Part shown: positions 6,594-58,644 of the stretch, in pieces
How the letters are laid out: each line of letters begins with the position of its first letter
How positions within the stretch are numbered: position 1 is the first letter of the stretch
Assembly: GCF_024713975.1 (NCBI RefSeq)
Contig: NC_091116.1
Location: 10,880,986 to 10,944,985 of the forward strand
DNA length: 64,000 nucleotides
Reading direction: 5' to 3'
From: Paralichthys olivaceus
Lineage: Eukaryota > Chordata > Actinopteri > Pleuronectiformes > Paralichthyidae
Notes under the pieces: generated by a model
Seen by the model: only the letters and a program-made list of their open reading frames with translations
Databases searched by the model: none
What the model was told of the DNA's origin: nothing
Made by a program: the position numbers and the translations under genes

Positions 6594-11610
<5,017 letters not shown>

Positions 11611-19030: not shown

Positions 19031-19057
19031 TATTGCATTTGTTTTATTTTCTTTCAG

Positions 19058-30080: not shown

Positions 30081-31789
30081 AGCAGTGTCTGCATTGTTCT
30101 TTACAAAGTCAAACATTAATTGTATGAAGTGAAAAATGCTTGAAGATGTGTCTTGTCTGTGAATCACTGAAGTTGTATTTAGTTGTACAAGCAGTGTGTT
30201 TGAGAACTGCTTCACATGTGTGTTGCATGGAGTCGACCAAGTTGCGTCACCTGTGTACAGGTATTGTAGTCCAGGATGATCGGAGTGGCCACTCCATTAT
30301 GTTAGTGTTGTTGGATGTTGAAGATGCTGCGTGCTTACTTGTGTGTTTGGGGTGGTTGTCTTGTTGAAACACACATTTGAAGGGTGTCTCCTCTTTGGCA
30401 TAAGTCAACATGATGTCTTGAAGTATTGTGCTTGTGCCACCATGCTTCACAGTGTTCTGTGGTTTGAACAGTGTTGCCTTCATCACTCCACAAAATGTTG
30501 TGGTATTTTCCTTTAAGGAAAATTGTAACCTTTTCAGCACATGTTGATTTTTCAACAATGGGACTTTGCGTAGGTGTCATTTTGGTTATTGTTTGATTCA
30601 TCTGAATGGTAGTGTACTGTTGTCTTCCACGTCTTTGTGGTTTTGGTTGCTATTTTAAAGGATTTGAGATGATTGTAGTTGAGCGGTTAGTACTTTTCTG
30701 GTTGTCTTGATACTTTTGAATCAAAGTATGCTGTTGTTGTGAACAATGACCCATGTTCCAGTGATTTTCAGACAAATGCACTAGAACTAGCATGTAGAAC
30801 ATTTGCTGCCTTGGTCCTTAAATGAGGGCCAGCTGTTTGACTTGAGTAATAGAACTCCACACTGCTGTTATTTTGAACACAATGACTGTTGTTGAAAGTG
30901 GTGAAATTGTGTTAGGGTTCTGTCTTGTCATGCCTCTGTCAAAATAGAAAGGTGATTGTTCAGCCAGGAAAAGTCCCAGGTGAGTATGTTTCTATTCTTT
31001 TCTCTTCTCAAAAATCTATTGGGTGAACCTGCATGGTTTTCTAAATAGTAATTTAGTTTTGTGTAAGTCCAGTTTTTGTATGAATGCCACACAGTGTTTG
31101 CTAAATGAGACCCTTGATTGTTTTGTCTGTCATACAGGGCCGATGAGGACAGCGGCTCACTCGTTAGGTGGAGCGATGTTGTTTGAGGTAAGTAATGTAT
31201 TAAGAGCAAATAGTCTGAATAATCTGTACACACTGACGTTGTTAAAAATAAAGACGACCACTTCTTTCCTCTTTCAGACATTGTACTGAAAGTCCTTGGT
31301 GGTGGGAGGGAACCACATGGAAAATGGTGAGTTTGATCTAAAATAGATTATCAGCTTTTAAAGATTGTTGTTTAGCAGCAAGTAGGTATGTGTTCCTCCA
31401 GGTGAGCCATAAGTCCTGGTTACTGTATGTCCTTCATGTGTTTCAGGTGTTATTGTGTCTACCAGGTTGTACTTCATGTGGACCTAAGAAACCTCTAAGC
31501 TGTTCCACCAGTGTTACTGAGGATCAACAGTGGTAAGTGGTTGTACAGTTCAGTGTTTGTTCATTAAATCAAAAGAGACTTTATATTAATGTGTGTTTGT
31601 AAACCATGTCATGTGTTACAGGTTTGTTGAAGCACCTGGATTGTGTCACTGCTGGATTTGTGAGTAGATTTGAACAGTTATTGTTTGAATGTAGTTGATC
31701 TATTGCTGCTTGTTCCATGTGAGAAGTAGAGTTGTGTTCAAAGTAATAGCAGTGTGTTTTAAACAATATAATAAAATAAAATAAAAGAT
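30081..31789 (+). repeat. Array unit 1 (1,709 bp)
   Basis: Full type, adjoining the leader. The Tc1-like right terminal repeat is at 30,858-30,882 (cacactgctgttattttgaa). The left terminal repeat of the next element is at 31,732-31,756. All splice signals A to E are intact. Confidence 0.95.
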
Positions 31790-32588
31790 AGCAGTGTCTG
31801 CATTGGTCTTTACAAAGTCAAACATTAATTGTATGAAGGGAAAAATGCTCGAAGATGTGTCTTGTCTGTGAATCACTGAAGTTGTATTTAGTTGTACGAG
31901 CAGTGTGTTTGAGAACTGCTTCACATGTGTGTTGCATGGAGTCGACCAAGTTGCGTCACCTGTGTACAGGTATTGTAGTCCAGGATGATCGGAGTGGCCA
32001 CTCTATAATGTTAGTGTTGTTGGATGTTGAAGATGCTGTGCTTACTTGTGTGTTTGGGGTGGTTGTCTCGTTGAAACACACATTTGAAGGGTGTCTCCTC
32101 TTTGGCATAAGGCAACACAATGTCTTGAAGTATTGTGCCTGTGCCATCATGCTTCACAGTGTTCTGTGGTTTGAACAGTGTTGCCTTCATCACTCCACAA
32201 AATGTTGTGGTATTGTCCTTTAAGGAAAATTGTAACCTCTTCAGCACATGTTGATTTTTCAACAATTAGACTTTGCGTAGGTGTCATTTTGGTTATTGTT
32301 TGATTCATCTGAATGGTAGTGTTCTGTTGTCTTCCACGTCTTTGTGGTTTTGGTTGCTATTTTAAAGGATTTGAGATGATTGAAGTTGAGCGGTTTGTAC
32401 TTTTCTGGTTTTTTGATACTTTTGAATCAAAGTATGCGGTTGTTGTGAACAATGACCCATGTTCCAGTGATTTTCAGACAAATGCACTAGAACTAGCATG
32501 TAGAACATTTGCTGCCTTGGTCCTTAAATGAGGGCCACCTGTTTGACTTGAGTAATAGAACTCCACACTGCTGTTATTTTGAACACAA
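31732..32588 (-). mobile_element. Tc1/mariner-like relic (representative copy)
   Basis: 857 bp between 25-bp inverted terminal repeats (31,732-31,756 and 32,564-32,588, about two mismatches). On the minus strand, transposase remnants are clear: LWSDEGNTVQ (catalytic-domain SDE region), TVKHGGTSTILQDIM and CVFQQDNHPKHTSKH (the QQDNDPKHTSK motif with the second catalytic Asp), then NIMEWP. The reading frame is broken by frameshifts. Most of the N-terminal DNA-binding part and the last third of the enzyme are missing. One such relic sits in every unit, so it was captured before the array expanded. It cannot move by itself. Confidence 0.85.
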
Positions 32589-33489
32589 TGACTGTTGTTG
32601 AAAGTGGTGAAATTGTGTTAGGGTTGTGTCTTGTCATGCCTCTGTCACAATAGAAAGGTGATTGTTCAGCCAGGAAAAGTCCCAGGTGAGTATGTTTCTA
32701 TTCTTTTCTCTTCTCAAAAATCTATTGGGTGAACCTGCATGGTTTTCTAAATAGTAATTTAGTTTTGTGTAAGTCCAGTTTTTGTATGAATGCCACAAAG
32801 TGTTTGCTAAATGAGACCCTTGATTGTTTTGTCTGTCATACAGGGCCGATGAGGACAGCGGCTTGTTAGGTGGAGCGATGTTGTTTGAGGTAAGTAATGT
32901 ATTAAGAGCAAATCGTCTGAATAATCTGTACACACTGACGTTGTTAAAAATAAAGACGACCACTTCTTTCCTCTTTCAGACATTGTACTGAAAGTCCTTG
33001 GTGGTGGGAGGGAACCACATGGAAAATGGTGAGTTTGATCTAAAATAGATTATCAGCTTTTAAAGATTGTTGTTTAGCAGCAAGTAGGTATGTGTTCCTC
33101 CAGGTAAGCCATAAGTCCTGGTTACTGTATGTCCTTCATCCTTTTCAGGTGTTATTGTGTCTACCAGGTTGTACTTCATGTGGACCTAAGAAACCTCTAA
33201 GCTGTTCCACCAGTGTTACTGAGGATCAACAGTGGTAAGTGGTTGTACAGTTCAGTGTTTGTTCATTAAATCAAAAGAGACTTTATATTAATGTGTGTTT
33301 GTAAACCATGTCATGTGTTACAGGTTTGTTGAAGCACCTGGATTGTGTCACTGCTGGATTTGTGAGTAGATTTGAACAGTTATTGTTTGAATGTAGTTGA
33401 TCTATTGCTGCTTGTTCCATGTGAGATGTAGAGTTGTGTTCAAAATAATAGCAGTGTGTTAATAAAAAATAAATAAATAAATAAAAGAT
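31790..33489 (+). repeat. Array unit 2 (1,700 bp)
   Basis: Exon B is 4 nt shorter here (cggcttgttagg instead of cggctcactcgttagg), so its length is 46 nt, and 4 nt are missing in the Tc1-like half at about 32,038. The exon D acceptor is of the cttcatccttttcag form. Confidence 0.95.
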
Positions 33490-35185
33490 AGCAGTGTCTG
33501 CATTGTTCTTTACAAAGTCAAACATTTATTGTATGAAGGGAAAAATGCTTGAAGATGTGTCTTGTCTGTGAATCACTGAAGTTGTATTTAGTTGTACAAG
33601 CAGTGTGTTTGAGAACTGCTTCACATGTGTGTTGCATGGAGTCGACCAAGTTGCGTCACCTGTGTACAGGTATTGTAGTCCAGGATGATTGGAGTGGCCA
33701 CTCCATTATGTTAGTGTTGTTGGATGTTGAAGATGCTGTGTGCTTACTTGTGTGTTTGGGGTGGTTGTCTTGTTGAAACACACATTTGAAGGGTGTCTCC
33801 TCTTTGGCATAAGTCAACATGATGTCTTGAAGTATTGTGCTTGTGCCACCATGCTTCACAGTGTTCTGTGGTTTGAACAGTGTTGCCTTCATCACTCCAT
33901 AAAATGTTGTGGTATTTTCCTTTAAGGAAAATTGTAACCTTTTCAGCAGATGTTGATTTTTCAACAATTGGACTTTGCGTAGGTGTCATTTTGGGTATTG
34001 TTTGATTCATCTGAATGGTAGTGTACTGTTGTCTTCCACGTCTTTGTGGTTTTGGTTGCTATTTTAAAGGATTTGAGATGATTGAAGTTGAGCAGTTTGT
34101 ACTTTTCTGGTTGTGTTGATACTTTTGAATCAAAGTATGCTGTTGTTTTGAACAATGACCCATGTTCCAGTGATTTTCAGACAAATGCACTAGAACTAGC
34201 ATGTAGAACATTTGCTGCCTTGGTCCTTAAATGACGGCCACCTGTTTGACTTGAGTAATAGAACTCCACACTGCTGTTCTTTTGAACACAATGACTGTTG
34301 TTGAAAGTGGTGAAATTGTGTTAGGGTTGTGTCTTGTCATGCCTCTGTCACAATAGAAAGGTGATTGTTCAGCCAGGAAAAGTCCCAGGTGAGTATGTTT
34401 CTATTCTTTTCTCTTCTCAAAAATCTATTGGGTGAACCTGCATGGTTTTCTAAATAGTAATTTAGTTTTGTGTAAGTCCAGTTTTTGTATGAATGCCACA
34501 CAGTGTTTGCTAAATGAGACCCTTGATTGTTTTGTCTGTCATACAGGGCCGATGAGGACAGCGGCTCACTCGTTAGGTGGAGCGATGTTGTTTGAGGTAA
34601 GTAATGTATTAAGAGCAAATAGTCTGAATAATCTGTACACACTGACGTTGTTAAAAATAAAGACGACCACTTCTTTCCTCTTTCAGACATTGTACTGAAA
34701 GTCCTTGGTGGTGGGAGGGAACCACATGGAAAATGGTGAGTTTGATCTAAAATAGATTATCAGCTTTTAAAGATTGTTGTTTAGCAGCAAGTAGGTATGT
34801 GTTCCTCCAGGTGAGCCATAAGTCCTGGTTACTGTATGTCCTTCATCCTTTTCAGGTGTTATTGTGTCTACCAGGTTGTACTTCATGTGGACCTAAGAAA
34901 CCTCTAAGCTGTTCCACCAGTGTTACTGAGGATCAACAGTGGTAAGTGGTTGTACAGTTCAGTGTTTGTTCATTAAATCAAAGGTGACTTTATATTAATG
35001 TGTGTTTGTAAACCATGTCATGTGTTACAGGTTTGTTGAAGCACCTGGATTGTGTCACTGCTGGATTTGTGAGTAGATTTGAACAGTTATTGTTTGAATG
35101 TATTTGATCTATTGCTGCTTGTTCCATGTGAGATGTAGAGTTGTGTTCAGAATAATAGCAGTGTGTTAATAAAAAAATAAAAGAT
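33490..35185 (+). repeat. Array unit 3 (1,696 bp)
   Basis: Full type with all splice signals: B 34,547-34,596, C 34,687-34,735, D 34,856-34,941, E from 35,031. The A-rich tract preceding it is an (AATA)n version. Confidence 0.95.
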
Positions 35186-36869
35186 AGCAGTGTCTGCATT
35201 GGTCTTTACAAAGTCAAACATTTATTGTATGAAGGGAAAAATGCTTGAAGATGTGTCTTGTCTGTGAATCACTGAAGTTGTATTTAGTTGTACAAGCAGT
35301 GTGTTTGAGAACTGCTTCACATGTGTGTTGCATGGAGTCGACCAAGTTGCGTCACCTGTGTACAGGTATTGTAGTCCAGGGTGATCGGAGTGGCCACTCC
35401 ATTATGTTAGTGTTGTTGGATGTTGAAGATGCTGCGTGCTTACTTGTGTGTTTGGGGTGGTTGTCTTGTTGAAACACACATTTGAAGGGTGTCTCCTCTT
35501 TGGCATAAGTCAACATGATGTCTTGAAGTATTGTGCTTGTGCCACCATGCTTCACAGTGTTCTGTGGTTTGAACAGTGTTGCCTTCATCACTCCATAAAA
35601 TGTTGTGGTATTTTCCTTTAAGGAAAATTGTAACCTTTTCAGCAGATGTTGATTTTTCAACAATTGGACTTTGCGTAGGTGTCATTTTGGGTATTGTTTG
35701 ATTCATCTGAATGGTAGTGTACTGTTGTCTTCCACGTCTTTGTGGTTTTGGTTGCTATTTTAAAGGATTTGAGATGATTGAAGTTGAGCAGTTTGTACTT
35801 TTCTGGTTGTGTTGATACTTTTGAATCAAAGTATGCTGTTGTTTTGAACAATGACCCATGTTCCAGTGATTTTCAGACAAATGCACTAGAACTAGCATGT
35901 AGAACATTTGCTGCCTTGGTCCTTAAATGACGGCCACCTGTTTGACTTGAGTAATAGAACTCCACACTGCTGTTCTTTTGAACACAATGACTGTTGTTGA
36001 AAGTGGTGAAATTGTGTTAGGGTTGTGTCTTGTCATGCCTCTGTCACAATAGAAAGGTGATTGTTCAGCCAGGAAAAGTCCCAGGTGAGTATGTTTCTAT
36101 TCTTTTCTCTTCTCAAAAATCTATTGGGTGAACCTGCATGGTTTTCTAATTTGTAATTTAGTTTTGTGTAAGTCCAGTTTTTGTATGAATGCCACACAGT
36201 GTTTGCTAAATGAGACCCTTGATTGTTTTGTCTGTCATACAGGGCCGATGAGGACAGCGGCTCACTCGTTAGGTGGAGCGATGTTGTTTGAGGTAAGTAA
36301 TGTATTAAGAGCAAATAGTCTGAATAATCTGTACACACTGACGTTGTTAAAAATAAAGACGACCACTTCTTTCCTCTTTCAGACATTGTACTGAAAGTCC
36401 TTGGTGGTGGGAGGGAACCACATGGAAAATGGTGAGTGTGATTTAAAATAGGTATTGAGCTTTTAAAGATTGTTGTTTAGCAGCAAGTAGGTATGTGTTC
36501 CTCCAGGTGAGCCATAAGTCCTGGTTACTGTATGTTAATGTGTTATTGTGTCTAGCAGGTTGTACTTCATGTGGACCTAAGAAAACTCTAAGCTGTTCCA
36601 CCAGTGTTACTGAGGATCAACAGTGGTAAGTGGTTGTACAGTTCAGTGTTTGTTCATTAAATCAAAGGTGACTTTATATTAATGTGTGTTTGTGAACCAT
36701 GTCATGTGTTACAGGTTTGTTGAAGCACCTGGATTGTGTCACTGCTGGATTTGTGAGTAGATTTGAACAGTTATTGTTTGAATGTATTTGATCTATTGCT
36801 GCTTGTTCCATGTGAGATGTAGAGTTGTGTTCAGAATAATAGCAGTGTGTTAATAAAAAAATAAAAGAT
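35186..36869 (+). repeat. Array unit 4 (1,684 bp)
   Basis: The cttcat...tttcag acceptor before exon D is lost: the sequence runs tatgttaatgtgttattg. A new tctagcag lies 17 nt into the old exon and could serve instead. The word after exon B differs slightly from its neighbours. Confidence 0.95.
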
Positions 36870-38553
36870 AGCAGTGTCTGCATTGGTCTTTACAAAGTCA
36901 AACATTAATTGTATGAAGGGAAAAATGCTAGAAGATGTGTCTTGTCTGTGAATCACTGAAGTTGTATTTAGTTGTACGAGCAGTGTGTTTGAGAACTGCT
37001 TCACATGTGTGTTGCATGGAGTCGACCAAGTTGCATCACCTGTGTACAGGTATTGTAGTCCAGGATGATCGGAGTGGCCACTCCATTATGTTAGTGTTGT
37101 TGGATGTTGAAGATGCTGCGTGCTTACTTGTGTGTTTGGGGTGGTTGTCTTGTTGAAACACACATTTGAAGGGTGTCTCCTCTTTGGCATAAGTCAACAT
37201 GATGTCTTGAAGTATTGTGCCTGTGCCATCATGCTTCACAGTGTTCTGTGGTTTGAACAGTGTTGCCTTCATCACTCCACAAAATGTTGTGGTATTTTCC
37301 TTTACTGAAAATTGTAACCTCTTCAGCACATGTTGATTTTTCAACAATTGGACTTTGCGTAGGTGTCATTTTGGTTATTGTTTGATTCATCTGAATGGTA
37401 GTGTACTGTTGTCTTCCACGTCTTTGTGGTTTTGGTTGCTATTTTAAAGGATTTGAGATGATTGAAGTTGAGCAGTTTGTACTTTTCTGGTTGTGTTGAT
37501 ACTTTTGAATCAAAGTATGCTGTTGTTTTGAACAATGACCCATGTTCCAGTGATTTTCAGACAAATGCACTAGAACTAGCATGTAGAACATTTGCTGCCT
37601 TGGTCCTTAAATGAGGGCCACCTGTTTGACTTGAGTAATAGAACTCCACACTGCTGTTATTTTGAACACAATGACTGTTGTTGAAAGTGGTGAAATTGTG
37701 TTATGGTTGTGTCTTGTCATGCCTCTGTCACAATAGAAAGGTGATTGTTCAGCCAGGAAAAGTCCCAGGTGAGTATGTTTCTATTCTTTTCTCTTCTCAA
37801 AAATCTATTGGGTGAACCTGCATGGTTTTCTAAATAGTAATTTAGTTTTGTGTAAGTCCAGTTTTTGTATGAATGCCACACAGTGTTTGCTAAATGAGAC
37901 CCTTGATTGTTTTGTCTGTCATACAGGGCCGATGAGGACAGCGGCTCACTCGTTAGGTGGAGCGATGTTGTTTGAGGTAAGTAATGTATTAAGAGCAAAT
38001 AGTCTGAATAATCTGTACACACTGACGTTGTTAAAAATAAAGACGACCACTTCTTTCCTCTTTCAGACATTGTACTGAAAGTCCTTGGTGGTGGGAGGGA
38101 ACCACATGGAAAATGGTGAGTTTGATCTAAAATAGATTATCAGCTTTTAAAGATTGTTGTTTAGCAGCAAGTAGGTATGTGTTCCTCCAGGTGAGCCATA
38201 AGTCCTGGTTACTGTATGTTAATGTGTTATTGTGTCTAGCAGGTTGTACTTCATGTGGACCTAAGAAAACTCTCAGCTGTTCCACCAGTGTTACTGAGGA
38301 TCAACAGTGGTAAGTGGTTGTACAGTTCAGTGTTTGTTCATTAAATCAAAGGTGACTTTATATTAATGTGTGTTTGTGAACCATGTCATGTGTTACAGGT
38401 TTGTTGAAGCACCTGGATTGTGTCACTGCTGGATTTGTGAGTAGATTTGAACAGTTATTGTTTGAATGTATTTGATCTATTGCTGCTTGTTCCATGTGAG
38501 ATGTAGAGTTGTGTTCAGAATAATAGCAGTGTGTTAATAAAAAAATAAAAGAT
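36870..38553 (+). repeat. Array unit 5 (1,684 bp)
   Basis: Has the same exon D acceptor loss as unit 4 and the same length, so the two are direct duplicates. A ctctcagctg variant lies inside exon D. Confidence 0.95.
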
Positions 38554-40249
38554 AGCAGTGTCTGCATTGGTCTTTACAAAGTCAAACATTAATTGTATGA
38601 AGGGAAAAATGCTAGAAGATGTGTCTTGTCTGTGAATCACTGAAGTTGTATTTAGTTGTACGAGCAGTGTGTTTGAGAACTGCTTCACATGTGTGTTGCA
38701 TGGAGTCGACCAAGTTGCGTCACCTGTGTACAGGTATTGTAGTCCAGGATGATCGGAGTGGCCACTCCATTATGTTAGTGTTGTTGGATGTTGAAGATGC
38801 TGCGTGCTTACTTGTGTGTTTGGGGTGGTTGTCTTGTTGAAACACACATTTGAAGGGTGTCTCCTCTTTGGCATAAGTCAACATGATGTCTTGAAGTATT
38901 GTGCCTGTGCCATCATGCTTCACAGTGTTCTGTGGTTTGAACAGTGTTGCCTTCATCACTCCACAAAATGTTGTGGTATTTTCCTTTACTGAAAATTGTA
39001 ACCTCTTCAGCACATGTTGATTTTTCAACAATGGGACTTTGCGTAGGTGTCATTTTGGTTATTGTTTGATTCATCTGAATGGTAGTGTACTGTTGTCTTC
39101 CACGTCTTTGTGGTTTTGGTTGCTATTTTAAAGGATTTGAGATGATTGAAGTTGAGCAGTTTGTACTTTTCTGGTTGTGTTGATACTTTTGAATCAAAGT
39201 ATGCGGTTGTTTTGAACAATGACCCATGTTCCAGTGATTTTCAGACAAATGCACTAGAACTAGCATGTAGAACATTTGCTGCCTTGGTCCTTAAATGACG
39301 GCCACCTGTTTGACTTGAGTAATAGAACTCCACACTGCTGTTATTTTGAACACAATGACTGTTGTTGAAAGTGGTGAAATTGTGTTAGGGTTGTGTCTTG
39401 TCATGCCTCTGTCACAATAGAAAGGTGATTGTTCAGCCAGGAAAAGTCCCAGGTGAGTATGTTTCTATTCTTTTCTCTTCTCAAAAATCTATTGGGTGAA
39501 CCTGCATGGTTTTCTAAATAGTAATTTAGTTTTGTGTAAGTCCAGTTTTTGTATGAATGCCACACAGTGTTTGCTAAATGAGACCCTTGATTGTTTTGTC
39601 TGTCATACAGGGCCGATGAGGACAGCGGCTCACTCGTTAGGTGGAGCGATGTTGTTTGAGGTAAGTAATGTATTAAGAGCAAATAGTCTGAATAATCTGT
39701 ACACACTGACGTTGTTAAAAATAAAGACGACCACTTCTTTCCTCTTTCAGACATTGTACTGAAAGTCCTTGGTGGTGGGAGGGAACCACATGGAAAATGG
39801 TGAGTTTGATCTAAAATAGATTATCAGCTTTTAAAGATTGTTGTTTAGCAGCAAGTAGGTATGTGTTCCTCCAGGTGAGCCATAAGTCCTGGTTACTGTA
39901 TGTCCTTCATCCTTTTCAGGTGTTATTGTGTCTACCAGGTTGTACTTCATGTGGACCTAAGAAACCTCTAAGCTGTTCCACCAGTGTTACTGAGGATCAA
40001 CAGTGGTAAGTGGTTGTACAGTTCAGTGTTTGTTCATTAAATCAAAGGTGACTTTATATTAATGTGTGTTTGTGAACCATGTCATGTGTTACAGGTTTGT
40101 TGAAGCACCTGGATTGTGTCACTGCTGGATTTGTGAGTAGATTTGAACAGTTATTGTTTGAATGTATTTGATCTATTGCTGCTTGTTCCATGTGAGATGT
40201 AGAGTTGTGTTCAGAATAATAGCAGTGTGTTAATAAAAAAATAAAAGAT
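38554..40249 (+). repeat. Array unit 6 (1,696 bp)
   Basis: The exon D acceptor is present again. The first part matches unit 5, so the boundary of the variant block lies inside this unit. Confidence 0.95.
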
Positions 40250-41948
40250 AGCAGTGTCTGCATTGGTCTTTAAAATGTCAAACATTAATTGTATGAAGGG
40301 AAAAATGCTAGAAGATGTGTCTTGTCTGTGAATCACTGAAGTTGTATTTAGTTGTACGAGCAGTGTGTTTGAGAACTGCTTCACATGTGTGTTGCATGGA
40401 GTCGACCAAGTTGCGTCACCTGTGTACAGGTATTGTAGTCCAGGATGATCGGAGTGGCCACTCCATTATGTTAGTGTTGTTGTTGGATGTTGAAGATGCT
40501 GCGTGCTTACTTGTGTGTTTGGGGTGGTTGTCTTGTTGAAACACACATTTGAAGGGTGTCTCCTCTTTGGCATAAGTCAACATGATGTCTTGAAGTATTG
40601 TGCTTGTGCCACCATGCTTCACAGTGTTCTGTGGTTTGAACAGCGTTGCCTTCATCACTCCACAAAATGTTGTGGTATTTTCCTTTAAGGAAAATTGTAA
40701 CCTTTTCAGCAGATGTTGATTTTTCAACAATTGGACTTTGCGTAGGTGTCATTTTGGGTATTGTTTGATTCATCTGAATGGTAGTGTACTGTTGTCTTCC
40801 ACGTCTTTGTGGTTTTGGTTGCTATTTTAAAGGATTTGAGATGATTGAAGTTGAGCAGTTTGTACTTTTCTGGTTGTGTTGATACTTTTGAATCAAAGTA
40901 TGCTGTTGTTTTGAACAATGACCCATGTTCCAGTGATTTTCAGACAAATGCACTAGAACTAGCATGTAGAACATTTGCTGCCTTGGTCCTTAAATGAGGG
41001 CCACCTGTTTGACTTGAGTAATAGAACTCCACACTGCTGTTCTTTTGAACACAATGACTGTTGTTGAAAGTGGTGAAATTGTGTTAGGGTTGTGTCTTGT
41101 CATGCCTCTGTCACAATAGAAAGGTGATTGTTCAGCCAGGAAAAGTCCCAGGTGAGTATGTTTCTATTCTTTTCTCTTCTCAAAAATCTATTGGGTGAAC
41201 CTGCATGGTTTTCTAAATAGTAATTTAGTTTTGTGTAAGTCCAGTTTTTGTATGAATGCCACACAGTGTTTGCTAAATGAGACCCTTGATTGTTTTGTCT
41301 GTCATACAGGGCCGATGAGGACAGCGGCTCACTCGTTAGGTGGAGCGATGTTGTTTGAGGTAAGTAATGTATTAAGAGCAAATAGTCTGAATAATCTGTA
41401 CACACTGACGTTGTTAAAAATAAAGACAACCACTTCTTTCCTCTTTCAGACATTGTACTGAAAGTCCTTGGTGGTGGGAGGGAACCACATGGAAAATGGT
41501 GAGTTTGATCTAAAATAGATTATCAGCTTTTAAAGATTGTAGTTTAGCAGCAAGTAGGTATGTGTTCCTCCAGGTGAGCCATAAGTCCTGGTTACTGTAT
41601 GTCCTTCATGTGTTTCAGGTGTTATTGTGTCTACCAGGTTGTACTTCATGTGGACCTAAGAAACCTCTAAGCTGTTCCACCAGTGTTACTGAGGATCAAC
41701 AGTGGTAAGTGGTTGTACAGTTCAGTGTTTGTTCATTAAATCAAAGGTGACTTTATATTAATGTGTGTTTGTGAACCATGTCATGTGTTACAGGTTTGTT
41801 GAAGCACCTGGATTGTGTCACTGCTGGATTTGTGAGTAGATTTGAACAGTTATTGTTTGAATGTATTTGATCTATTGCTGCTTGTTCCATGTGAGATGTA
41901 GAGTTGTGTTCAGAGTAATAGCAGTGTGTTAATAAAAAAATAAAAGAT
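40250..41948 (+). repeat. Array unit 7 (1,699 bp)
   Basis: Carries two markers shared with units 9 and 11: tctttaaaatgtc for tctttacaaagtc, and an extra GTT in gttgttgttgg. Confidence 0.95.
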
Positions 41949-47051: not shown

Positions 47052-48763
47052 AGCAGTGTCTGCATTGGTCTTTAAAATGTCAAACATTAATTGTATGAAG
47101 GGAAAAATGCTAGAAGATGTGTCTTGTCTGTGAATCACTGAAGTTGTATTTAGTTGTACGAGCAGTGTGTTTGAGAACTGCTTCACATGTGTGTTGCATG
47201 GAGTCGACCAAGTTGCGTCACCTGTGTACAGGTATTGTAGTCCAGGATGATCGGAGTGGCCACTCCATTATGTTAGTGTTGTTGTTGGATGTTGAAGATG
47301 CTGCGTGCTTACTTGTGTGTTTGGGGTGGTTGTCTTGTTGAAACACACATTTGAAGGGTGTCTCCTCTTTGGCATAAGTCAACATGATGTCTTGAAGTAT
47401 TGTGCTTGTGCCACCATGCTTCACAGTGTTCTGTGGTTTGAACAGCGTTGCCTTCATCACTCCACAAAATGTTGTGGTATTTTCCTTTAAGGAAAATTGT
47501 AACCTTTTCAGCAGATGTTGATTTTTCAACAATTGGACTTTGCGTAGGTGTCATTTTGGGTATTGTTTGATTCATCTGAATGGTAGTGTACTGTTGTCTT
47601 CCACGTCTTTGTGGTTTTGGTTGCTATTTTAAAGGATTTGAGATGATTGAAGTTGAGCAGTTTGTACTTTTCTGGTTGTGTTGATACTTTTGAATCAAAG
47701 TATGCTGTTGTTTTGAACAATGACCCATGTTCCAGTGATTTTCAGACAAATGCACTAGAACTAGCATGTAGAACATTTGCTGCCTTGGTCCTTAAATGAC
47801 GGCCACCTGTTTGACTTGAGTAATAGAACTCCACACTGCTGTTCTTTTGAACACAATGACTGTTGTTGAAAGTGGTGAAATTGTGTTAGGGTTGTGTCTT
47901 GTCATGCCTCTGTCACAATAGAAAGGTGATTGTTCAGCCAGGAAAAGTCCCAGGTGAGTATGTTTCTATTCTTTTCTCTTCTCAAAAATCTATTGGGTGA
48001 ACCTGCATGGTTTTCTAAATAGTAATTTAGTTTTGTGTAAGTCCAGTTTTTGTATGAATGCCACACAGTGTTTGCTAAATGAGACCCTTGATTGTTTTGT
48101 CTGTCATACAGGGCCGATGAGGACAGCGGCTCACTCGTTAGGTGGAGCGATGTTGTTTGAGGTAAGTAATGTATTAAGAGCAAATAGTCTGAATAATCTG
48201 TACACACTGACATTGTTAAAAATAAAGACGACCACTTCTTTCCTCTTTCAGACATTGTACTGAAAGTCCTTGGTGGTGGGAGGGAACCACATGGAAAATG
48301 GTGAGTTTGATCTAAAATAGATTATCAGCTTTTAAAGATTGTTGTTTAGCAGCAAGTAGGTATGTGTTCCTCCAGGTGAGCCATAAGTCCTGGTTACTGT
48401 ATGTCCTTCATGTGTTTCAGGTGTTATTGTGTCTACCAGGTTGTACTTCATGTGGACCTAAGAAACCTCTAAGCTGTTCCACCAGTGTTACTGAGGATCA
48501 ACAGTGGTAAGTGGTTGTACAGTTCAGTGTTTGTTCATTAAATCAAAAGAGACTTTATATTAATGTGTGTTTGTAAACCATGTCATGTGTTACAGGTTTG
48601 TTGAAGCACCTGGATTGTGTCACTGCTGGATTTGTGAGTAGATTTGAACAGTTATTGTTTGAATGTAGTTGATCTATTGCTGCTTGTTCCATGTGAGAAG
48701 TAGAGTTGTGTTCAAAGTAATAGCAGTGTGTTTTAAACAATATAATAAAATAAAATAAAAGAT
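47052..48763 (+). repeat. Array unit 11 (1,712 bp)
   Basis: Carries both unit-7 markers. From about 47,720 onwards it belongs to the first copy of the 5,103-bp higher-order repeat. Confidence 0.95.
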
Positions 48764-50468
48764 AGCAGTGTCTGCATTGTTCTTTACAAAGTCAAACATT
48801 TATTGTATGAAGTAAAAAATGCTAGATGTGTCTTGTCTGTGAATCACTGAAGTTGTATTTAGTTGTACGAGCAGTGTGTTTGAGAACTGCTTCACATGTG
48901 TGTTGCATGGAGTCGACCAAGTTGTGTCACCTGTGTACAGGTATTGTAGTCCAGGATGATCGGAGTGGCCACTCCATTATGTTAGTGTTGTTGGATGTTG
49001 AAGATGCTGTGTGCTTACTTGTGTGTTTGGGGTGGTTGTCTCGTTGAAACACACATTTGAAGGGTGTCTCCTCTTTGGCATAAGGCAACACAATGTCTTG
49101 AAGTATTGTGCCTGTGCCACCATGCTTCACAGTGTTCTGTGGTTTGAACAGTGTTGCCTTCATCACTCCACAAAATGTTGTGGTATTGTCCTTTAAGGAA
49201 AATTGTAACCTCTTCAGCACATGTTGATTTTTCAACAATTGGACTTTGCGTAGGTGTCATTTTGGTTATTGTTTGATTCATCTGAATGGTAGTGTTCTGT
49301 TGTCTTCCACGTCTTTGTGGTTTTGGTTGTTATTTTAAAGGATTTGAGATGATTGAAGTTGAGCGGTTTGTACTTTTCTGGTTTTTTGATACTTTTGAAT
49401 CAAAGTATGCTGTTGTTGTGAACAATGACCCATGTTCCAGTGATTTTCAGAGAAATGCACTAGAACTAGCATGTAGAACATTTGCTGCCTTGGTCCTTAA
49501 ATGAGGGCCACCTGTTTGACTTGAGTAATAGAACTCCACACTGCTGTTATTTTGAACACAATGACTGTTGTTGAAAGTGGTGAAATTGTGTTAGGGTTGT
49601 GTCTTGTCATGCCTCTGTCACAATAGAAAGGTGATTGTTCAGCCAGGAAAAGTCCCAGGTGAGTATGTTTCTATTCTTTTCTCTTCTCAAAAATCTATTG
49701 GGTGAACCTGCATGGTTTTCTAAATAGTAATTTAGTTTTGTGTAAGTCCAGTTTTTGTATGAATGCCACACAGTGTTTGCTAAATGAGACCCTTGATTGT
49801 TTTGTCTGTCATACAGGGCCGATGAGGACAGCGGCTCACTGGTTAGGTGGAGCGATGTTGTTTGAGGTAAGTAATGTATTAAGAGCAAATAGTCTGAATA
49901 ATCTGTACACACTGACGTTGTTAAAAATAAAGACGACCACTTCTTTCCTCTTTCAGACATTGTACTGAAAGTCCTTGGTGGTGGGAGGGAACCACATGGA
50001 AAATGGTGAGTTTGATCTAAAATAGATTATCAGCTTTTAAAGATTGTTGTTTAGCAGCAAGTAGGTATGTGTTCCTCCAGGTGAGCCATAAGTCCTGGTT
50101 ACTGTATGTCCTTCATGTGTTTCAGGTGTTATTGTGTCTACCAGGTTGTACTTCATGTGGACCTAAGAAACCTCTAAGCTGTTCCACCAGTGTTACTGAG
50201 GATCAACAGTGGTAAGTGGTTGTACAGTTCAGTGTTTGTTCATTAAATCAAAAGAGACTTTATATTAATGTGTGTTTGTAAACCATGTCATGTGTTACAG
50301 GTTTGTTGAAGCACCTGGATTGTGTCACTGCTGGATTTGTGAGTAGATTTGAACAGTTATTGTTTGAATGTAGTTGATCTATTGCTGCTTGTTCCATGTG
50401 AGAAGTAGAGTTGTGTTCAAAGTAATAGCAGTGTGTTTTAAACAATATAATAAAATAAAATAAAAGAT
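48764..50468 (+). repeat. Array unit 12 (1,705 bp)
   Basis: Marked by gttgtgtcacc near the start of the Tc1-like half and by cactggttaggtgg in exon B. Repeated as unit 15. Confidence 0.95.
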
Positions 50469-52160
50469 AGCAGTGTCTGCATTGTTCTTTACAAAGTCAA
50501 ACATTTATTGTATGAAGTAAAAAATGCTAGATGTGTCTTGTCTGTGAATCACTGAAGTTGTATTTAGTTGTACAAGCAGTGTGTTTGAGAACAGCTTCAC
50601 ATGTGTGTTGCATGGAGTCGACCAAGTTGCGTCACCTGTGTACAGGTATTGTAGTCCAGGATGATCGGAGTGGCCACTCCATTATGTTAGTGTTGTTGGA
50701 TGTTGAAGATGCTGTGTGCTTACTTGTGTGTTTGGGGTGGTTGTCTCGTTGAAACACACATTTGAAGGGTGTCTCCTCTTTGGCATAAGGCAACACAATG
50801 TCTTGAAGTATTGTGCCTGTGCCACCATGCTTCACAGTGTTCTGTGGTTTGAACAGTGTTGCCTTCATCACTCCACAAAATGTTGTGGTATTGTCCTTTA
50901 AGGAAAATTGTAACCTCTTCAGCACATGTTAATTTTTCAACAATTGGACTTTGCGTAGGTGTCATTTTGGTTATTGTTTGATTCATCTGAATGGTAGTGT
51001 TCTGTTGTCTTCCACGTCTTTGTGGTTTTGGTTGTTATTTTAAAGGATTTGAGATGATTGAAGTTGAGCGGTTTGTACTTTTCTGGTTTTTTGATACTTT
51101 TGAATCAAAGTATGCTGTTGTTGTGAACAATGACCCATGTTCCAGTGATTTTCAGAGAAATGCACTAGAACTAGCATGTAGAACATTTGCTGCCTTGGTC
51201 CTTAAATGAGGGCCACCTGTTTGACTTGAGTAATAGAACTCCACACTGCTGTTATTTTGAACACAATGACTGTTGTTGAAAGTGGTGAAATTGTGTTAGG
51301 GTTGTGTCTTGTCATGCCTCTGTCACAATAGAAAGGTGATTGTTCAGCCAGGAAAAGTCCCAGGTGAGTATGTTTCTATTCTTTTCTCTTCTCAAAAATC
51401 TATTGGGTGAACCTGCATGGTTTTCTAAATAGTAATTTAGTTTTGTGTAAGTCCAGTTTTTGTATGAATGCCACACAGTGTTTGCTAAATGAGACCCTTG
51501 ATTGTTTTGTCTGTCATACAGGGCCGATGAGGACAGCGGCTCACTCGTTAGGTGGAGCGATGTTGTTTGAGGTAAGTAATGTATTAAGAGCAAATAGTCT
51601 GAATAATCTGTACACACTGACGTTGTTAAAAATAAAGACGACCACTTCTTTCCTCTTTCAGACATTGTACTGAAAGTCCTTGGTGGTGGGAGGGAACCAC
51701 ATGGAAAATGGTGAGTTTGATCTAAAATAGATTATCAGCTTTTAAAGATTGTTGTTTAGCAGCAAGTAGGTATGTGTTCCTCCAGGTGAGCCATAAGTCC
51801 TGGTTACTGTATGTCCTTCATGTGTTTCAGGTGTTATTGTGTCTACCAGGTTGTACTTCATGTGGACCTAAGAAACCTCTAAGCTGTTCCACCAGTGTTA
51901 CTGAGGATCAACAGTGGTAAGTGGTTGTACAGTTCAGTGTTTGTTCATTAAATCAAAGGTGACTTTATATTAATGTGTGTTTGTGAACCATGTCATGTGT
52001 TACAGGTTTGTTGAAGCACCTGGATTGTGTCACTGCTGGATTTGTGAGTAGATTTGAACAGTTATTGTTTGAATGTATTTGATCTATTGCTGCTTGTTCC
52101 ATGTGAGATGTAGAGTTGTGTTCAGAATAATAGCAGTGTGTTAATAAAAAAATAAAAGAT
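50469..52160 (+). repeat. Array unit 13 (1,692 bp)
   Basis: Repeated as unit 16 with at least one difference (cacatgttaattt here, cacatgttgattt in unit 16). Confidence 0.95.
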
Positions 52161-53866
52161 AGCAGTGTCTGCATTGGTCTTTAAAATGTCAAACATTAAT
52201 TGTATGAAGGGAAAAATGCTAGAAGATGTGTCTTGTCTGTGAATCACTGAAGTTGTATTTAGTTGTACGAGCAGTGTGTTTGAGAACTGCTTCACATGTG
52301 TGTTGCATGGAGTCGACCAAGTTGCGTCACCTGTGTACAGGTATTGTAGTCCAGGATGATCGGAGTGGCCACTCCATAATGTTAGTGTTGTTGGATGTTG
52401 AAGATGCTGTGTGCTTACTTGTGTGTTTGGGGTGGTTGTCTTGTTGAAACACACATTTGAAGGGTGTCTCCTCTTTGGCATAAGTCAACATGATGTCTTG
52501 AAGTATTGTGCTTGTGTCACCATGCTTCACAGTGTTCTGTGGTTTGAACAGCGTTGCCTTCATCACTCCACAAAAGGTTGTGGTATTTTCCTTTAAGGAA
52601 AATTGTAACCTTTTCAGCAGATGTTGATTTTTCAACAATTGGACTTTGCGTAGGTGTCATTTTGGGTATTGTTTGATTCATCTGAATGGTAGTGTTCTGT
52701 TGTCTTCTACATCTTTGTGGTTTTGGTTGCTATTTTAAAGGATTTGAGATAATTGTAGTTGAGCGGTTTGTACTTTTCTGGTTGTCTTGATACTTTTGAA
52801 TCAAAGTATGCTGTTGTGAACAATGACCCATGTTCCAGTGATTTTCAGACAAATGCACTAGAACTAGCATGTAGAACATTTGCTGCCTTGGTCCTTAAAT
52901 GACGGCCACCTGTTTGACTTGAGTAATAGAACTCCACACTGCTGTTCTTTTGAACACAATGACTGTTGTTGAAAGTGGTGAAATTGTGTTAGGGTTGTGT
53001 CTTGTCATGCCTCTGTCACAATAGAAAGGTGATTGTTCAGCCAGGAAAAGTCCCAGGTGAGTATGTTTCTATTCTTTTCTCTTCTCAAAAATCTATTGGG
53101 TGAACCTGCATGGTTTTCTAAATAGTAATTTAGTTTTGTGTAAGTCCAGTTTTTGTATGAATGCCACACAGTGTTTGCTAAATGAGACCCTTGATTGTTT
53201 TGTCTGTCATACAGGGCCGATGAGGACAGCGGCTCACTCGTTAGGTGGAGCGATGTTGTTTGAGGTAAGTAATGTATTAAGAGCAAATAGTCTGAATAAT
53301 CTGTACACACTGACATTGTTAAAAATAAAGACGACCACTTCTTTCCTCTTTCAGACATTGTACTGAAAGTCCTTGGTGGTGGGAGGGAACCACATGGAAA
53401 ATGGTGAGTTTGATCTAAAATAGATTATCAGCTTTTAAAGATTGTTGTTTAGCAGCAAGTAGGTATGTGTTCCTCCAGGTGAGCCATAAGTCCTGGTTAC
53501 TGTATGTCCTTCATGTGTTTCAGGTGTTATTGTGTCTACCAGGTTGTACTTCATGTGGACCTAAGAAACCTCTAAGCTGTTCCACCAGTGTTACTGAGGA
53601 TCAACAGTGGTAAGTGGTTGTACAGTTCAGTGTTTGTTCATTAAATCAAAAGAGACTTTATATTAATGTGTGTTTGTAAACCATGTCATGTGTTACAGGT
53701 TTGTTGAAGCACCTGGATTGTGTCACTGCTGGATTTGTGAGTAGATTTGAACAGTTATTGTTTGAATGTAGTTGATCTATTGCTGCTTGTTCCATGTGAG
53801 AAGTAGAGTTGTGTTCAAAGTAATAGCAGTGTGTTTTAAACAATATAATAAAATAAAATAAAAGAT
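52161..53866 (+). repeat. Array unit 14 (1,706 bp)
   Basis: Has gagataattg and a shortened gctgttgtgaac in the Tc1-like half. Its first half is repeated in unit 17. Confidence 0.95.
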
Positions 53867-55571
53867 AGCAGTGTCTGCATTGTTCTTTACAAAGTCAAAC
53901 ATTTATTGTATGAAGTAAAAAATGCTAGATGTGTCTTGTCTGTGAATCACTGAAGTTGTATTTAGTTGTACGAGCAGTGTGTTTGAGAACTGCTTCACAT
54001 GTGTGTTGCATGGAGTCGACCAAGTTGTGTCACCTGTGTACAGGTATTGTAGTCCAGGATGATCGGAGTGGCCACTCCATTATGTTAGTGTTGTTGGATG
54101 TTGAAGATGCTGTGTGCTTACTTGTGTGTTTGGGGTGGTTGTCTCGTTGAAACACACATTTGAAGGGTGTCTCCTCTTTGGCATAAGGCAACACAATGTC
54201 TTGAAGTATTGTGCCTGTGCCACCATGCTTCACAGTGTTCTGTGGTTTGAACAGTGTTGCCTTCATCACTCCACAAAATGTTGTGGTATTGTCCTTTAAG
54301 GAAAATTGTAACCTCTTCAGCACATGTTGATTTTTCAACAATTGGACTTTGCGTAGGTGTCATTTTGGTTATTGTTTGATTCATCTGAATGGTAGTGTTC
54401 TGTTGTCTTCCACGTCTTTGTGGTTTTGGTTGTTATTTTAAAGGATTTGAGATGATTGAAGTTGAGCGGTTTGTACTTTTCTGGTTTTTTGATACTTTTG
54501 AATCAAAGTATGCTGTTGTTGTGAACAATGACCCATGTTCCAGTGATTTTCAGAGAAATGCACTAGAACTAGCATGTAGAACATTTGCTGCCTTGGTCCT
54601 TAAATGAGGGCCACCTGTTTGACTTGAGTAATAGAACTCCACACTGCTGTTATTTTGAACACAATGACTGTTGTTGAAAGTGGTGAAATTGTGTTAGGGT
54701 TGTGTCTTGTCATGCCTCTGTCACAATAGAAAGGTGATTGTTCAGCCAGGAAAAGTCCCAGGTGAGTATGTTTCTATTCTTTTCTCTTCTCAAAAATCTA
54801 TTGGGTGAACCTGCATGGTTTTCTAAATAGTAATTTAGTTTTGTGTAAGTCCAGTTTTTGTATGAATGCCACACAGTGTTTGCTAAATGAGACCCTTGAT
54901 TGTTTTGTCTGTCATACAGGGCCGATGAGGACAGCGGCTCACTGGTTAGGTGGAGCGATGTTGTTTGAGGTAAGTAATGTATTAAGAGCAAATAGTCTGA
55001 ATAATCTGTACACACTGACGTTGTTAAAAATAAAGACGACCACTTCTTTCCTCTTTCAGACATTGTACTGAAAGTCCTTGGTGGTGGGAGGGAACCACAT
55101 GGAAAATGGTGAGTTTGATCTAAAATAGATTATCAGCTTTTAAAGATTGTTGTTTAGCAGCAAGTAGGTATGTGTTCCTCCAGGTGAGCCATAAGTCCTG
55201 GTTACTGTATGTCCTTCATGTGTTTCAGGTGTTATTGTGTCTACCAGGTTGTACTTCATGTGGACCTAAGAAACCTCTAAGCTGTTCCACCAGTGTTACT
55301 GAGGATCAACAGTGGTAAGTGGTTGTACAGTTCAGTGTTTGTTCATTAAATCAAAAGAGACTTTATATTAATGTGTGTTTGTAAACCATGTCATGTGTTA
55401 CAGGTTTGTTGAAGCACCTGGATTGTGTCACTGCTGGATTTGTGAGTAGATTTGAACAGTTATTGTTTGAATGTAGTTGATCTATTGCTGCTTGTTCCAT
55501 GTGAGAAGTAGAGTTGTGTTCAAAGTAATAGCAGTGTGTTTTAAACAATATAATAAAATAAAATAAAAGAT
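53867..55571 (+). repeat. Array unit 15 (1,705 bp)
   Basis: Near-exact copy of unit 12, displaced by 5,103 bp. Confidence 0.95.
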
Positions 55572-57263
55572 AGCAGTGTCTGCATTGTTCTTTACAAAGT
55601 CAAACATTTATTGTATGAAGTAAAAAATGCTAGATGTGTCTTGTCTGTGAATCACTGAAGTTGTATTTAGTTGTACAAGCAGTGTGTTTGAGAACAGCTT
55701 CACATGTGTGTTGCATGGAGTCGACCAAGTTGCGTCACCTGTGTACAGGTATTGTAGTCCAGGATGATCGGAGTGGCCACTCCATTATGTTAGTGTTGTT
55801 GGATGTTGAAGATGCTGTGTGCTTACTTGTGTGTTTGGGGTGGTTGTCTCGTTGAAACACACATTTGAAGGGTGTCTCCTCTTTGGCATAAGGCAACACA
55901 ATGTCTTGAAGTATTGTGCCTGTGCCACCATGCTTCACAGTGTTCTGTGGTTTGAACAGTGTTGCCTTCATCACTCCACAAAATGTTGTGGTATTGTCCT
56001 TTAAGGAAAATTGTAACCTCTTCAGCACATGTTGATTTTTCAACAATTGGACTTTGCGTAGGTGTCATTTTGGTTATTGTTTGATTCATCTGAATGGTAG
56101 TGTTCTGTTGTCTTCCACGTCTTTGTGGTTTTGGTTGTTATTTTAAAGGATTTGAGATGATTGAAGTTGAGCGGTTTGTACTTTTCTGGTTTTTTGATAC
56201 TTTTGAATCAAAGTATGCTGTTGTTGTGAACAATGACCCATGTTCCAGTGATTTTCAGAGAAATGCACTAGAACTAGCATGTAGAACATTTGCTGCCTTG
56301 GTCCTTAAATGAGGGCCACCTGTTTGACTTGAGTAATAGAACTCCACACTGCTGTTATTTTGAACACAATGACTGTTGTTGAAAGTGGTGAAATTGTGTT
56401 AGGGTTGTGTCTTGTCATGCCTCTGTCACAATAGAAAGGTGATTGTTCAGCCAGGAAAAGTCCCAGGTGAGTATGTTTCTATTCTTTTCTCTTCTCAAAA
56501 ATCTATTGGGTGAACCTGCATGGTTTTCTAAATAGTAATTTAGTTTTGTGTAAGTCCAGTTTTTGTATGAATGCCACACAGTGTTTGCTAAATGAGACCC
56601 TTGATTGTTTTGTCTGTCATACAGGGCCGATGAGGACAGCGGCTCACTCGTTAGGTGGAGCGATGTTGTTTGAGGTAAGTAATGTATTAAGAGCAAATAG
56701 TCTGAATAATCTGTACACACTGACGTTGTTAAAAATAAAGACGACCACTTCTTTCCTCTTTCAGACATTGTACTGAAAGTCCTTGGTGGTGGGAGGGAAC
56801 CACATGGAAAATGGTGAGTTTGATCTAAAATAGATTATCAGCTTTTAAAGATTGTTGTTTAGCAGCAAGTAGGTATGTGTTCCTCCAGGTGAGCCATAAG
56901 TCCTGGTTACTGTATGTCCTTCATGTGTTTCAGGTGTTATTGTGTCTACCAGGTTGTACTTCATGTGGACCTAAGAAACCTCTAAGCTGTTCCACCAGTG
57001 TTACTGAGGATCAACAGTGGTAAGTGGTTGTACAGTTCAGTGTTTGTTCATTAAATCAAAGGTGACTTTATATTAATGTGTGTTTGTGAACCATGTCATG
57101 TGTTACAGGTTTGTTGAAGCACCTGGATTGTGTCACTGCTGGATTTGTGAGTAGATTTGAACAGTTATTGTTTGAATGTATTTGATCTATTGCTGCTTGT
57201 TCCATGTGAGATGTAGAGTTGTGTTCAGAATAATAGCAGTGTGTTAATAAAAAAATAAAAGAT
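55572..57263 (+). repeat. Array unit 16 (1,692 bp)
   Basis: Near-exact copy of unit 13, displaced by 5,103 bp. Confidence 0.95.
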
Positions 57264-58623
57264 AGCAGTGTCTGCATTGGTCTTTAAAATGTCAAACATT
57301 AATTGTATGAAGGGAAAAATGCTAGAAGATGTGTCTTGTCTGTGAATCACTGAAGTTGTATTTAGTTGTACGAGCAGTGTGTTTGAGAACTGCTTCACAT
57401 GTGTGTTGCATGGAGTCGACCAAGTTGCGTCACCTGTGTACAGGTATTGTAGTCCAGGATGATCGGAGTGGCCACTCCATAATGTTAGTGTTGTTGGATG
57501 TTGAAGATGCTGTGTGCTTACTTGTGTGTTTGGGGTGGTTGTCTTGTTGAAACACACATTTGAAGGGTGTCTCCTCTTTGGCATAAGTCAACATGATGTC
57601 TTGAAGTATTGTGCTTGTGTCACCATGCTTCACAGTGTTCTGTGGTTTGAACAGCGTTGCCTTCATCACTCCACAAAAGGTTGTGGTATTTTCCTTTAAG
57701 GAAAATTGTAACCTTTTCAGCAGATGTTGATTTTTCAACAATTGGACTTTGCGTAGGTGTCATTTAGGTTATTGTTTGTTTCATCTGAATGGTAGTGTTC
57801 TGTTGTCTTCTACATCTTTGTGGTTTTGGTTGCTATTTTAAAGGATTTGAGATAATTGTAGTTGAGCGGTTTGTACTTTTCTGGTTGTCTTGATACTTTT
57901 GAATCAAAGTATGCTGTTGTGAACAATGACCCATGTTCCAGTGATTTTCAGACAAATGCACTAGAACTAGCATGTAGAACATTTGCTGCCTTGGTCCTTA
58001 AATGACGGCCACCTGTTTGACTTGAGTAATAGAACTCCACACTGCTGTTATTTTGAACACAATGACTGTTGTTGAAAGTGGTGAAATTGTGTTAGGGTTG
58101 TGTCTTGTCATGCCTCTGTCACAATAGAAAGGTGAATGTCCAGCCACGAAAAGTCCCAGGTGAGTATGTTTCTATTCTTGTTTTATCTCAAAAATCTATT
58201 GGGTAAACTTGCTGCACTTGCTAACTAGGTGTGTGTCCCTCCATGTGAGCCATAACTCCATTTCCTTCATGTGTTTCAGGTGTTATTGTGTCTACCAGGT
58301 TGTACTTCATGTGGACCTAAGAAACCTCTAAGCTGTTCCACCAGTGTTACTGAGGATCAACAGTGGTAAGTGGTTGTACAGTTCAGTGTTTGTTCATTAA
58401 ATCAAAAGAGACTTTATATGAATGTGTGTTTGTAAACCATGTCATGTGTTACAGGTTTGTTGAAGCACCTGGATTGTGTCACTGCTGGAATTGATAGTAG
58501 ATTTGAACAGTTATTGGTTTGAATGTAGTTGATCTATTGCAGCTTGTTCCATGTGAGATGTAGAGTTGTGTTGAAAATAATAGCAGTGTGTTTTAAACAA
58601 AATAATAAAATAAAATAAAAGAT
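57264..58623 (+). repeat. Array unit 17, terminal short type (1,360 bp)
   Basis: The left part copies unit 14. From about 58,020 it switches to the short type seen at 21,042-22,301: exons B and C are absent and the intron before exon D is the diverged form. Exons A, D (about 58,280-58,365) and E remain. It meets the L2 derivative at about 58,645. Confidence 0.95.
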
Positions 58624-58644
58624 AGCAGTGTCTGCATTGTTCTT

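Follow-up and report, generated by a model that had tools for sequence, protein, structure and literature searches.

Tandem units of short noncoding exons and introns that are read through from one promoter are known from the imprinted C19MC host and SNORD115/116 host genes, whose introns carry microRNAs or C/D snoRNAs. Ampliconic families on sex chromosomes are mostly protein-coding and testis-expressed. According to PMC4820808, the exons of FIRRE/Firre consist largely of one local repeat: the RRD occurs in 7 of 13 exons in human and in 11 of 23 in mouse, and the introns contain other repeats.

We analyzed a window of 64,000 nt (the whole stretch of DNA under study) from Paralichthys olivaceus which contains a tandem array of exon-like cassettes. 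Tandem units of short noncoding exons and introns are shared with the C19MC and SNORD115/116 hosts, but an Rfam search of the window gave nothing at gathering score, and the plus strand of the unit consensus showed no conspicuous microRNA-like hairpin. Many near-identical copies on one chromosome and in both orientations resemble the ampliconic families, although the family found here is read as noncoding. Head-to-tail homogenised units with a decayed transposon piece are also seen in transposon-derived satellite DNA, which has no fixed start and end modules, whereas the arrays here have both. A search of the open-licence PMC literature for a fish satellite of such build gave no match. With FIRRE/Firre the locus shares the noncoding reading, the repeated exons and the other repeats in the introns. 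However, FIRRE is a single X-linked locus with a demonstrated transcript (PMC4820808), while the family here comprises about 25 copies on one contig, repeats whole five-exon cassettes and is predicted from the DNA sequence.

Based on the sequence we consider it moderately likely that the array forms the main part of a single noncoding RNA gene with many exons, which has about 25 copies on contig C24 with starts, cassettes and donor-less ends. The RNA and the model of its spread are deduced. The main features of the array are as follows.

30061-58655, plus strand: tandem cassettes, about 1.7 kb per full unit, containing 17 A, 16 B, 16 C, 17 D and 17 E (unit alignment, segment census)
40207-41050, minus strand: decayed Tc1-like piece in the E-to-A intron of one unit (by eye, borders approximate)
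41088-41151, plus strand: candidate exon A of an example cassette (5' border uncertain)
41310-41359, plus strand: candidate exon B of the same cassette
41450-41498, plus strand: candidate exon C
41619-41704, plus strand: candidate exon D
41794-41831, plus strand: candidate exon E with GTGAGT donor
58096-58625, plus strand: terminal unit of the array without B or C, AATAAA downstream; A at 58096-58159, D at 58280-58365, E from 58455 with the broken donor GATAGT

The array starts with a partial unit, ends with a shortened one and contains 15 full units of 1684-1708 nt, each with approximately 96-99.8% identity to the unit at 40001. The units run head-to-tail and are homogenised, as in satellite DNA. 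A preliminary description of this DNA had placed the array here and reported plus-strand segments of 50, 49, 86 and about 38 nt with AG acceptors and GT donors, around 65 potential exons and AATAAA motifs downstream in most units. All of this was recovered: segments B, C, D and E measured 50, 49, 86 and 38 nt, respectively, they added up to 66 copies, nearly all with AG/GT, and AATAAA was located within 220 nt of the start of E in 17 of 17 units. Segment A, both ends of the array and the genome context were absent from that description.

In segment A the AG was present in 16 and the donor in all 17 copies. The 16 copies of B, 15 found by substitution match and one with a 4-nt deletion, were all bounded by AG/GT, as were 16 of 16 copies of C. 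D carried the donor in 17 and the AG in 15 copies, its acceptor being lost in two units of the window, and E carried the AG in 17 copies and GTGAGT in 16, with GATAGT in the last. The GTGAGT donor of A was strong (12.4 bits) and the E donor only moderate (5.2 bits). The nearest AG, 64 nt from the A donor, was a weak acceptor (1.2 bits) and the 5' border of A is therefore uncertain.

On the plus strand of the unit consensus, scored with splice matrices, seven acceptor-donor pairs were found 25-150 nt apart, compared to a mean of 0.63 in 1000 dinucleotide shuffles, none of which reached seven; the seven real pairs overlap one another. A stricter score of non-overlapping pairs gave 2 against a shuffle mean of 0.13 (P 0.006). 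Additionally, seven distinct donors above 8 bits were present on the plus strand and none on the minus strand (shuffle mean 2.1); the donor listing has eight rows, one donor being counted twice at the circular join of the consensus. In samples from 5.77 and 8.14 Mb all visible exon ends were AG/GT (35 acceptors, 36 donors). D preceded by a TTCAG acceptor occurred in 269 exact copies. Short tandem exons with canonical splice ends on one strand are thus found, as in a repeat-exon lncRNA gene.

We read the joined exons as noncoding because stops are abundant in all three plus frames and each cassette of 287 nt shifts the frame. The lack of a long conserved reading frame is likewise as in a repeat-exon lncRNA gene. 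A protein with repeated domains would draw on two open frames, one of 41 codons through A+B and one of more than 60 codons through C+D+E. These are mutually out of phase, the cassette length of 287 nt is not divisible by three and Pfam gave no match for either peptide, so that we reject a protein-coding gene as far as tested and regard it as close to refuted.

A known small RNA in each unit, as in a microRNA or snoRNA host array, was rejected by the Rfam search and the hairpin scan; unlisted small RNAs are possible. The weak Rfam matches in one unit were all far below gathering score, and the best one to miR-430 (21.8 bits, cut-off 47.3) lies across the transposon end. When the unit consensus was scanned in 80-nt windows, the seven of lowest energy shown for each strand had hairpin z values down to -2.51 on plus and -3.38 on minus, the latter within the transposon piece.

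Transposase-like frames were present on the minus strand in every unit looked at. The inverted ends and transposase-like motifs of the Tc1-like pieces were recognised by eye only, a Pfam search of two pieces returned no Tc1 match and no TA target duplication was recognised around them by eye. In gynogenetic Paralichthys olivaceus, Tc1/Mariner was the family most targeted by piRNAs (PMC12562241). Together with the antisense frames and start-to-end spans of 1.5-79 kb this would suit a family of germline piRNA precursors, sense RNAs with antisense Tc1-like sequence in every intron that feed piRNAs against Tc1-like transposons. However, all pieces copy one insertion, while a trap would hold many different transposons, and the strong splice signals would take the piece out as an intron; we regard this reading as improbable.

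Beside the array, a second putative gene copy and part of an orphan cassette were found in the window.

18881-22300, plus strand: gene copy 1 without a full cassette, having A, D and a terminal E after the 5' module; paired on C24 as start 10901726 and end 10903274
18881-19030 and 20364-20862, plus strand: 5' module of gene copy 1
20741-20829, plus strand: 5' exon candidate (U2) of gene copy 1 with CTCTAG acceptor and GTAGGT donor
21760-21823, plus strand: candidate exon A of gene copy 1
21944-22029, plus strand: candidate exon D of gene copy 1
22119-22280, plus strand: candidate terminal exon E of gene copy 1, donor GATAGT, AATAAA downstream
29251-58660, plus strand: gene copy 2, comprising the array, its 5' module and its 3' end; paired on C24 as start 10910759 and end 10939617
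29251-30060, plus strand: 5' module of gene copy 2
29774-29862, plus strand: 5' exon candidate (U2) of gene copy 2
63506-64000, plus strand: left part of an orphan cassette which continues past the window, no 5' module ahead; its A-E lie at 64341-65086 in window numbering (341-1086 beyond the window end)

The 588-Mb assembly contained 25 copies of the 5' module and 26 of the 3' end, all of them on C24. Starts were searched with a 41-nt pattern of the 5' exon allowing two mismatches, and all 25 were exact; ends were searched allowing three, and nine were exact and 17 had one mismatch. For 23 of 25 starts an end on the same strand precedes the next start, giving one start and one end per array, and the strands of 5' module, cassettes and end agree. 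Among the matches listed (140 were counted), 99 of 100 exon-C copies were located inside such start-end pairs and none was on the opposite strand. The cassette matches listed show C24 first, and more distant copies may exist on other contigs.

The E donor was intact in 276 copies and broken in 27, and a broken donor was present within 200 nt of 23 of the 26 ends. Two array ends 6.4 Mb away, which were read directly, again showed the A-D-E terminal unit with the donors GAGAGT and GATAGT, and AATAAA follows the terminal unit wherever this was read. Broken E donors and array ends are copies by descent and do not represent independent events. Since the E donor breaks at the ends, starts pair with ends and exon C lies inside the pairs, each array is laid out like a gene, with a start, a number of cassettes and a terminal exon. 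Such fixed gene-like boundary modules are not expected of satellite DNA.

The preliminary description had left two possibilities, one transcript through the array or a family of 17 small genes. We favour the former because an array has a single 5' module and a single donor-less terminal unit rather than one of each in every unit. In the general form of the latter, in which each cassette is a small gene that starts in the transposon end and has a polyadenylation site of its own, the weak acceptor would allow A to be a first exon and AATAAA does follow E in every unit of the array. The E donor, however, is kept in 276 copies and lost almost only at array ends, and the 5' module is shared by a whole array, which makes cassette-wise genes very unlikely.

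The exon status of the 5' candidate is doubtful, since it sits in a dispersed repeat, also found on C2, C3, C7, C9, C10, C12, C18, C20 and C21, and a GT donor was present at its position in none of five aligned dispersed copies. A control intron 41-mer adjoining it was almost equally conserved (22 exact and two one-mismatch copies against 25 exact). Four dispersed 5'-module loci on C21, C3, C20 and C18 (2.2-4 kb each) contained no cassette match at E 1e-4.

As a check, the preliminary description had proposed to compare the conservation of splice sites with that of neighbouring intron bases. The outcome was divided. Exons varied less than introns in three comparisons, in one of which part of the intron differences lies beside a poorly aligned deletion; one comparison covered 29 full cassettes, one with D doubled and five without B and C. 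Between the array consensus and the orphan cassette 7 of 287 exon and 13 of 520 intron positions differed, which is no difference. Exon constraint as proof of function was dropped, as neither this comparison nor the control 41-mer favours it.

That exons and introns diverge alike from the orphan cassette points to the main rival, a dead gene that is still amplifying. Its splice signals would be relics of a gene that was once spliced, and its arrays would now spread as silent segmental duplications or as gene-derived satellite. Cassettes without the D acceptor were amplified too: among the matches listed, 3 of 25 cassettes of the gene at 4740417 carried D with the TTCAG acceptor. Splice sites would survive without selection because the units are so alike, with a mean identity of 99.1% between window cassettes and 98.8% between the window and a 4.5-Mb gene. 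CpG in the array is very low (observed/expected approximately 0.2), as in methylated repeats. The lower exon variation in three comparisons, the start-cassette-end order held in 23 of 25 copies and the exact 5' exon in 25 of 25 speak against a dead gene, but a young age could explain each of them. We consider the dead gene possible, yet rather unlikely.

In favour of the gene reading, the sense strand of the array is rich in G and T, with a GC skew of about +0.2 and an AT skew between about -0.15 and -0.2. The excess sets in at the 5' modules, near 18.7 kb and 29.1 kb. A minus-strand copy had the same skew on its sense strand. In fish introns sense-strand C-to-T exceeds G-to-A (PMC2927911). 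Here, mutation polarity was not significant (12 C-to-T, 11 G-to-A, rate ratio 1.73, p 0.2). The skew may have been inherited from one ancestral unit.

Returning to the multi-exon noncoding gene, its copies probably make long repetitive noncoding RNAs. RNA polymerase II would start in the 5' module, and the cassettes would be spliced A-B-C-D-E repeatedly. Splicing would excise the intron with the Tc1-like piece that separates E from the following A, and the transcript would end after the donor-less terminal E. The cassettes were probably multiplied by unequal exchange between decayed Tc1-like pieces which flank each A-E block in the same orientation. Segmental duplication in both orientations would then have distributed whole genes over C24. 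The RNA might act through its many copies of a short spliced module, which would provide a scaffold or a retention signal, a mode reported for Firre; alternatively, it might serve as a precursor of germline small RNAs.

A bolder extension, which we hold to be speculative and improbable, would see cassette-repeat noncoding RNAs as a family confined to one chromosome, with about 25 genes in clusters along about 7 Mb of C24 and a few hundred copies of one spliced module. Their RNA would act in cis on its own chromosome, in dosage, pairing or sex-linked regulation, and the number of cassettes would serve as a tunable dose.

If transcribed, the family would form a natural dose series, with zero to many cassettes between the same 5' and 3' ends in about 25 copies within one genome, and would make testable the long-standing question of whether the activity of lncRNAs such as Xist or Firre is set by their number of repeats. 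It would also mean that an intronic transposon could convert a spliced gene into a growing array of exons. If silent, it would be a clear case of a gene body becoming a satellite with its boundaries kept, and a warning for gene annotation in repeat-rich regions.

The tandem array spans positions 30061-58655 of the window and comprises 15 full units of 1684-1708 nt each; its first unit is only partial, and its last one is shortened. A segment census within the array bore out the lengths of 50, 49, 86 and 38 nt given in the preliminary description for the exon-like segments of the cassette (here named B, C, D and E). An additional segment, A, had been missed there; it has a weak acceptor and a strong donor at its 3' end. 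In total, 17 A, 16 B, 16 C, 17 D and 17 E segments were counted, one B carrying a 4-nt deletion. Canonical ends were lacking at a single A acceptor, at two of the D acceptors and at the donor of the last E; every other end was canonical. The features of the window are listed below.

Features of the window
6441-11610 (6.4-11.6 kb): exons of a zc3h12-like gene, Pfam matches UBA_6 and Regnase_1_C
18881-22300 (18.88-22.3 kb), plus strand: gene copy 1, cassette-free, left and right flanks the same as in the array copy
22269-24521: LINE reverse-transcriptase frame, 750 residues and uninterrupted, immediately following gene copy 1; shortened relative at 58609, after the array
29251-58660, plus strand: gene copy 2, holding the array
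62623-62752: 39-bp tandem repeat (3.3 copies) close to the third block's left edge
63506 (63.5 kb) onwards: orphan cassette without a preceding start region, its left part in the window and the remainder beyond, all five segments intact

The unit consensus contained 7 acceptor-donor pairs compared to 0.63 in dinucleotide shuffles (0 of 1000 shuffles reached 7), scored with splice-site matrices. A stricter count of non-overlapping pairs gave 2 versus 0.13 (P 0.006), and donors above 8 bits were found on the plus strand only.

The exon pattern of the start region (5' module) matched 25 times in the assembly (588 Mb in 25 contigs). With two mismatches allowed, all matches were exact and located on C24, the 14.74 Mb contig carrying the window.

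5' exon pattern on C24
4.41-4.87 Mb: 9
5.73-5.82 Mb: 5
8.11-8.24 Mb: 5
10.48 Mb: 1
window: 2
11.22-11.27 Mb: 3

The 3' junction matched 26 times, likewise only on C24. Starts and ends alternated with agreeing strands, and an end was found for 23 of the 25 starts (spans of 1.5-79 kb), leaving three ends and two starts unpaired; for two starts with more than one end ahead of the following start the nearest end was used. Of 140 exon C copies counted, 100 positions were listed and 99 of these lay inside start-end pairs on the correct strand. Within the assembly, E occurred in 276 copies with an intact and 27 with a broken donor, and D preceded by a TTCAG acceptor in 269. Among the matches listed (the first 100 each), exon C, TTCAG-D and intact-donor E were all on C24. 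A broken-donor E was present within 200 nt of 23 of the 26 ends, and four were internal. Among the matches listed, the intact-donor E copies at C24:4421028 and C24:4574755 did not fall within any start-end pair and so resemble the orphan cassette.

Direct reading of the ends at 4.49 and 4.53 Mb revealed an A-D-E terminal unit as in the window, the donors being GAGAGT and GATAGT, and the gene following the first of them opens with the same 5' module. Full ABCDE units were mixed with ADE units at C24:5769001-5775000, and both alternated strictly at C24:8136001-8142500; all visible exon ends in these two samples (35 acceptors, 36 donors) carried AG or GT. In the gene copy at C24:4740417-4819898, TTCAG-D was matched in only 3 of the 25 listed cassettes with an intact-donor E (4742285-4783031), and a cassette form with altered D acceptor therefore seems to have been amplified here. 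Near 4.648 Mb one cassette had a tandemly duplicated exon D.

Parts of the 5' module matched dispersed sequence on nine other contigs (C2, C3, C7, C9, C10, C12, C18, C20 and C21) at 75-88%, on C21 and C20 partly as short tandem copies. The cassette was not found at four dispersed loci matching the module. The GT donor of the 5' exon candidate was missing in all five aligned dispersed copies, while the acceptor AG was present in two, absent in two and cut off in the fifth. Either the C24 family may have gained this donor, or the 5' segment may be no exon.

Comparisons of exons and introns were mixed. Segregating sites among the 15 window units numbered 5/286 in exons, 25/567 in introns and 55/843 in transposon sequence, and among 29 full cassettes 17/287 versus 54/547 (one-sided p 0.033). 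Array and solo copy differed at 1/188 versus 21/283 positions (p 1.6e-4, a value exaggerated by poor alignment at the edge of a deletion). However, array and orphan cassette (7/287 versus 13/520 differences) and the intron control beside the 5' exon count against exon constraint. Splice-site dinucleotide columns also varied no less than introns (3/20 columns). Over all these comparisons, selection is suggested at most.

The sense strand of the array is G- and T-rich (GC skew ~+0.2, AT skew ~-0.15 to -0.2) and CpG-poor (observed/expected ~0.2), in contrast to the window's initial 18 kb. The skew sets in near 18.7 and 29.1 kb, the sites of the 5' modules, and stops at 22.3 kb past copy 1; in a minus-strand copy it sits on that copy's own sense strand. 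In fish introns, C-to-T changes outnumber G-to-A changes on the sense strand (PMC2927911), so that germline transcription would be a fitting cause. However, the array skew exceeds the intron values of that paper, where GC skew within the gene bodies of primates and rodents stays below 0.06, and it may instead derive from one ancestral unit; recent changes were too few for a mutation-polarity test.

The product would be non-coding, given stops in each plus frame and a frame shift at each cassette. No array of such build was matched in open-licence PMC papers. Closest to its proposed way of working is Firre, where a local repeat supplies many exons (PMC4820808). Membership in Firre is unsupported by any tested homology, and the C24 family differs in copy number, in its confinement to one contig and in a predicted rather than observed transcript. 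Each A-E block is flanked by same-orientation pieces, one also following the terminal E, which were read by eye as Tc1-like (no match in Pfam); unequal exchange between them would thus explain cassette expansion. The layout of the family suggests a gene read in the 5'-to-3' direction, with a start module, n cassettes and a donor-less last exon. In the array copy of the window, its spliced RNA would contain the 287-nt module as many as ~16 times.
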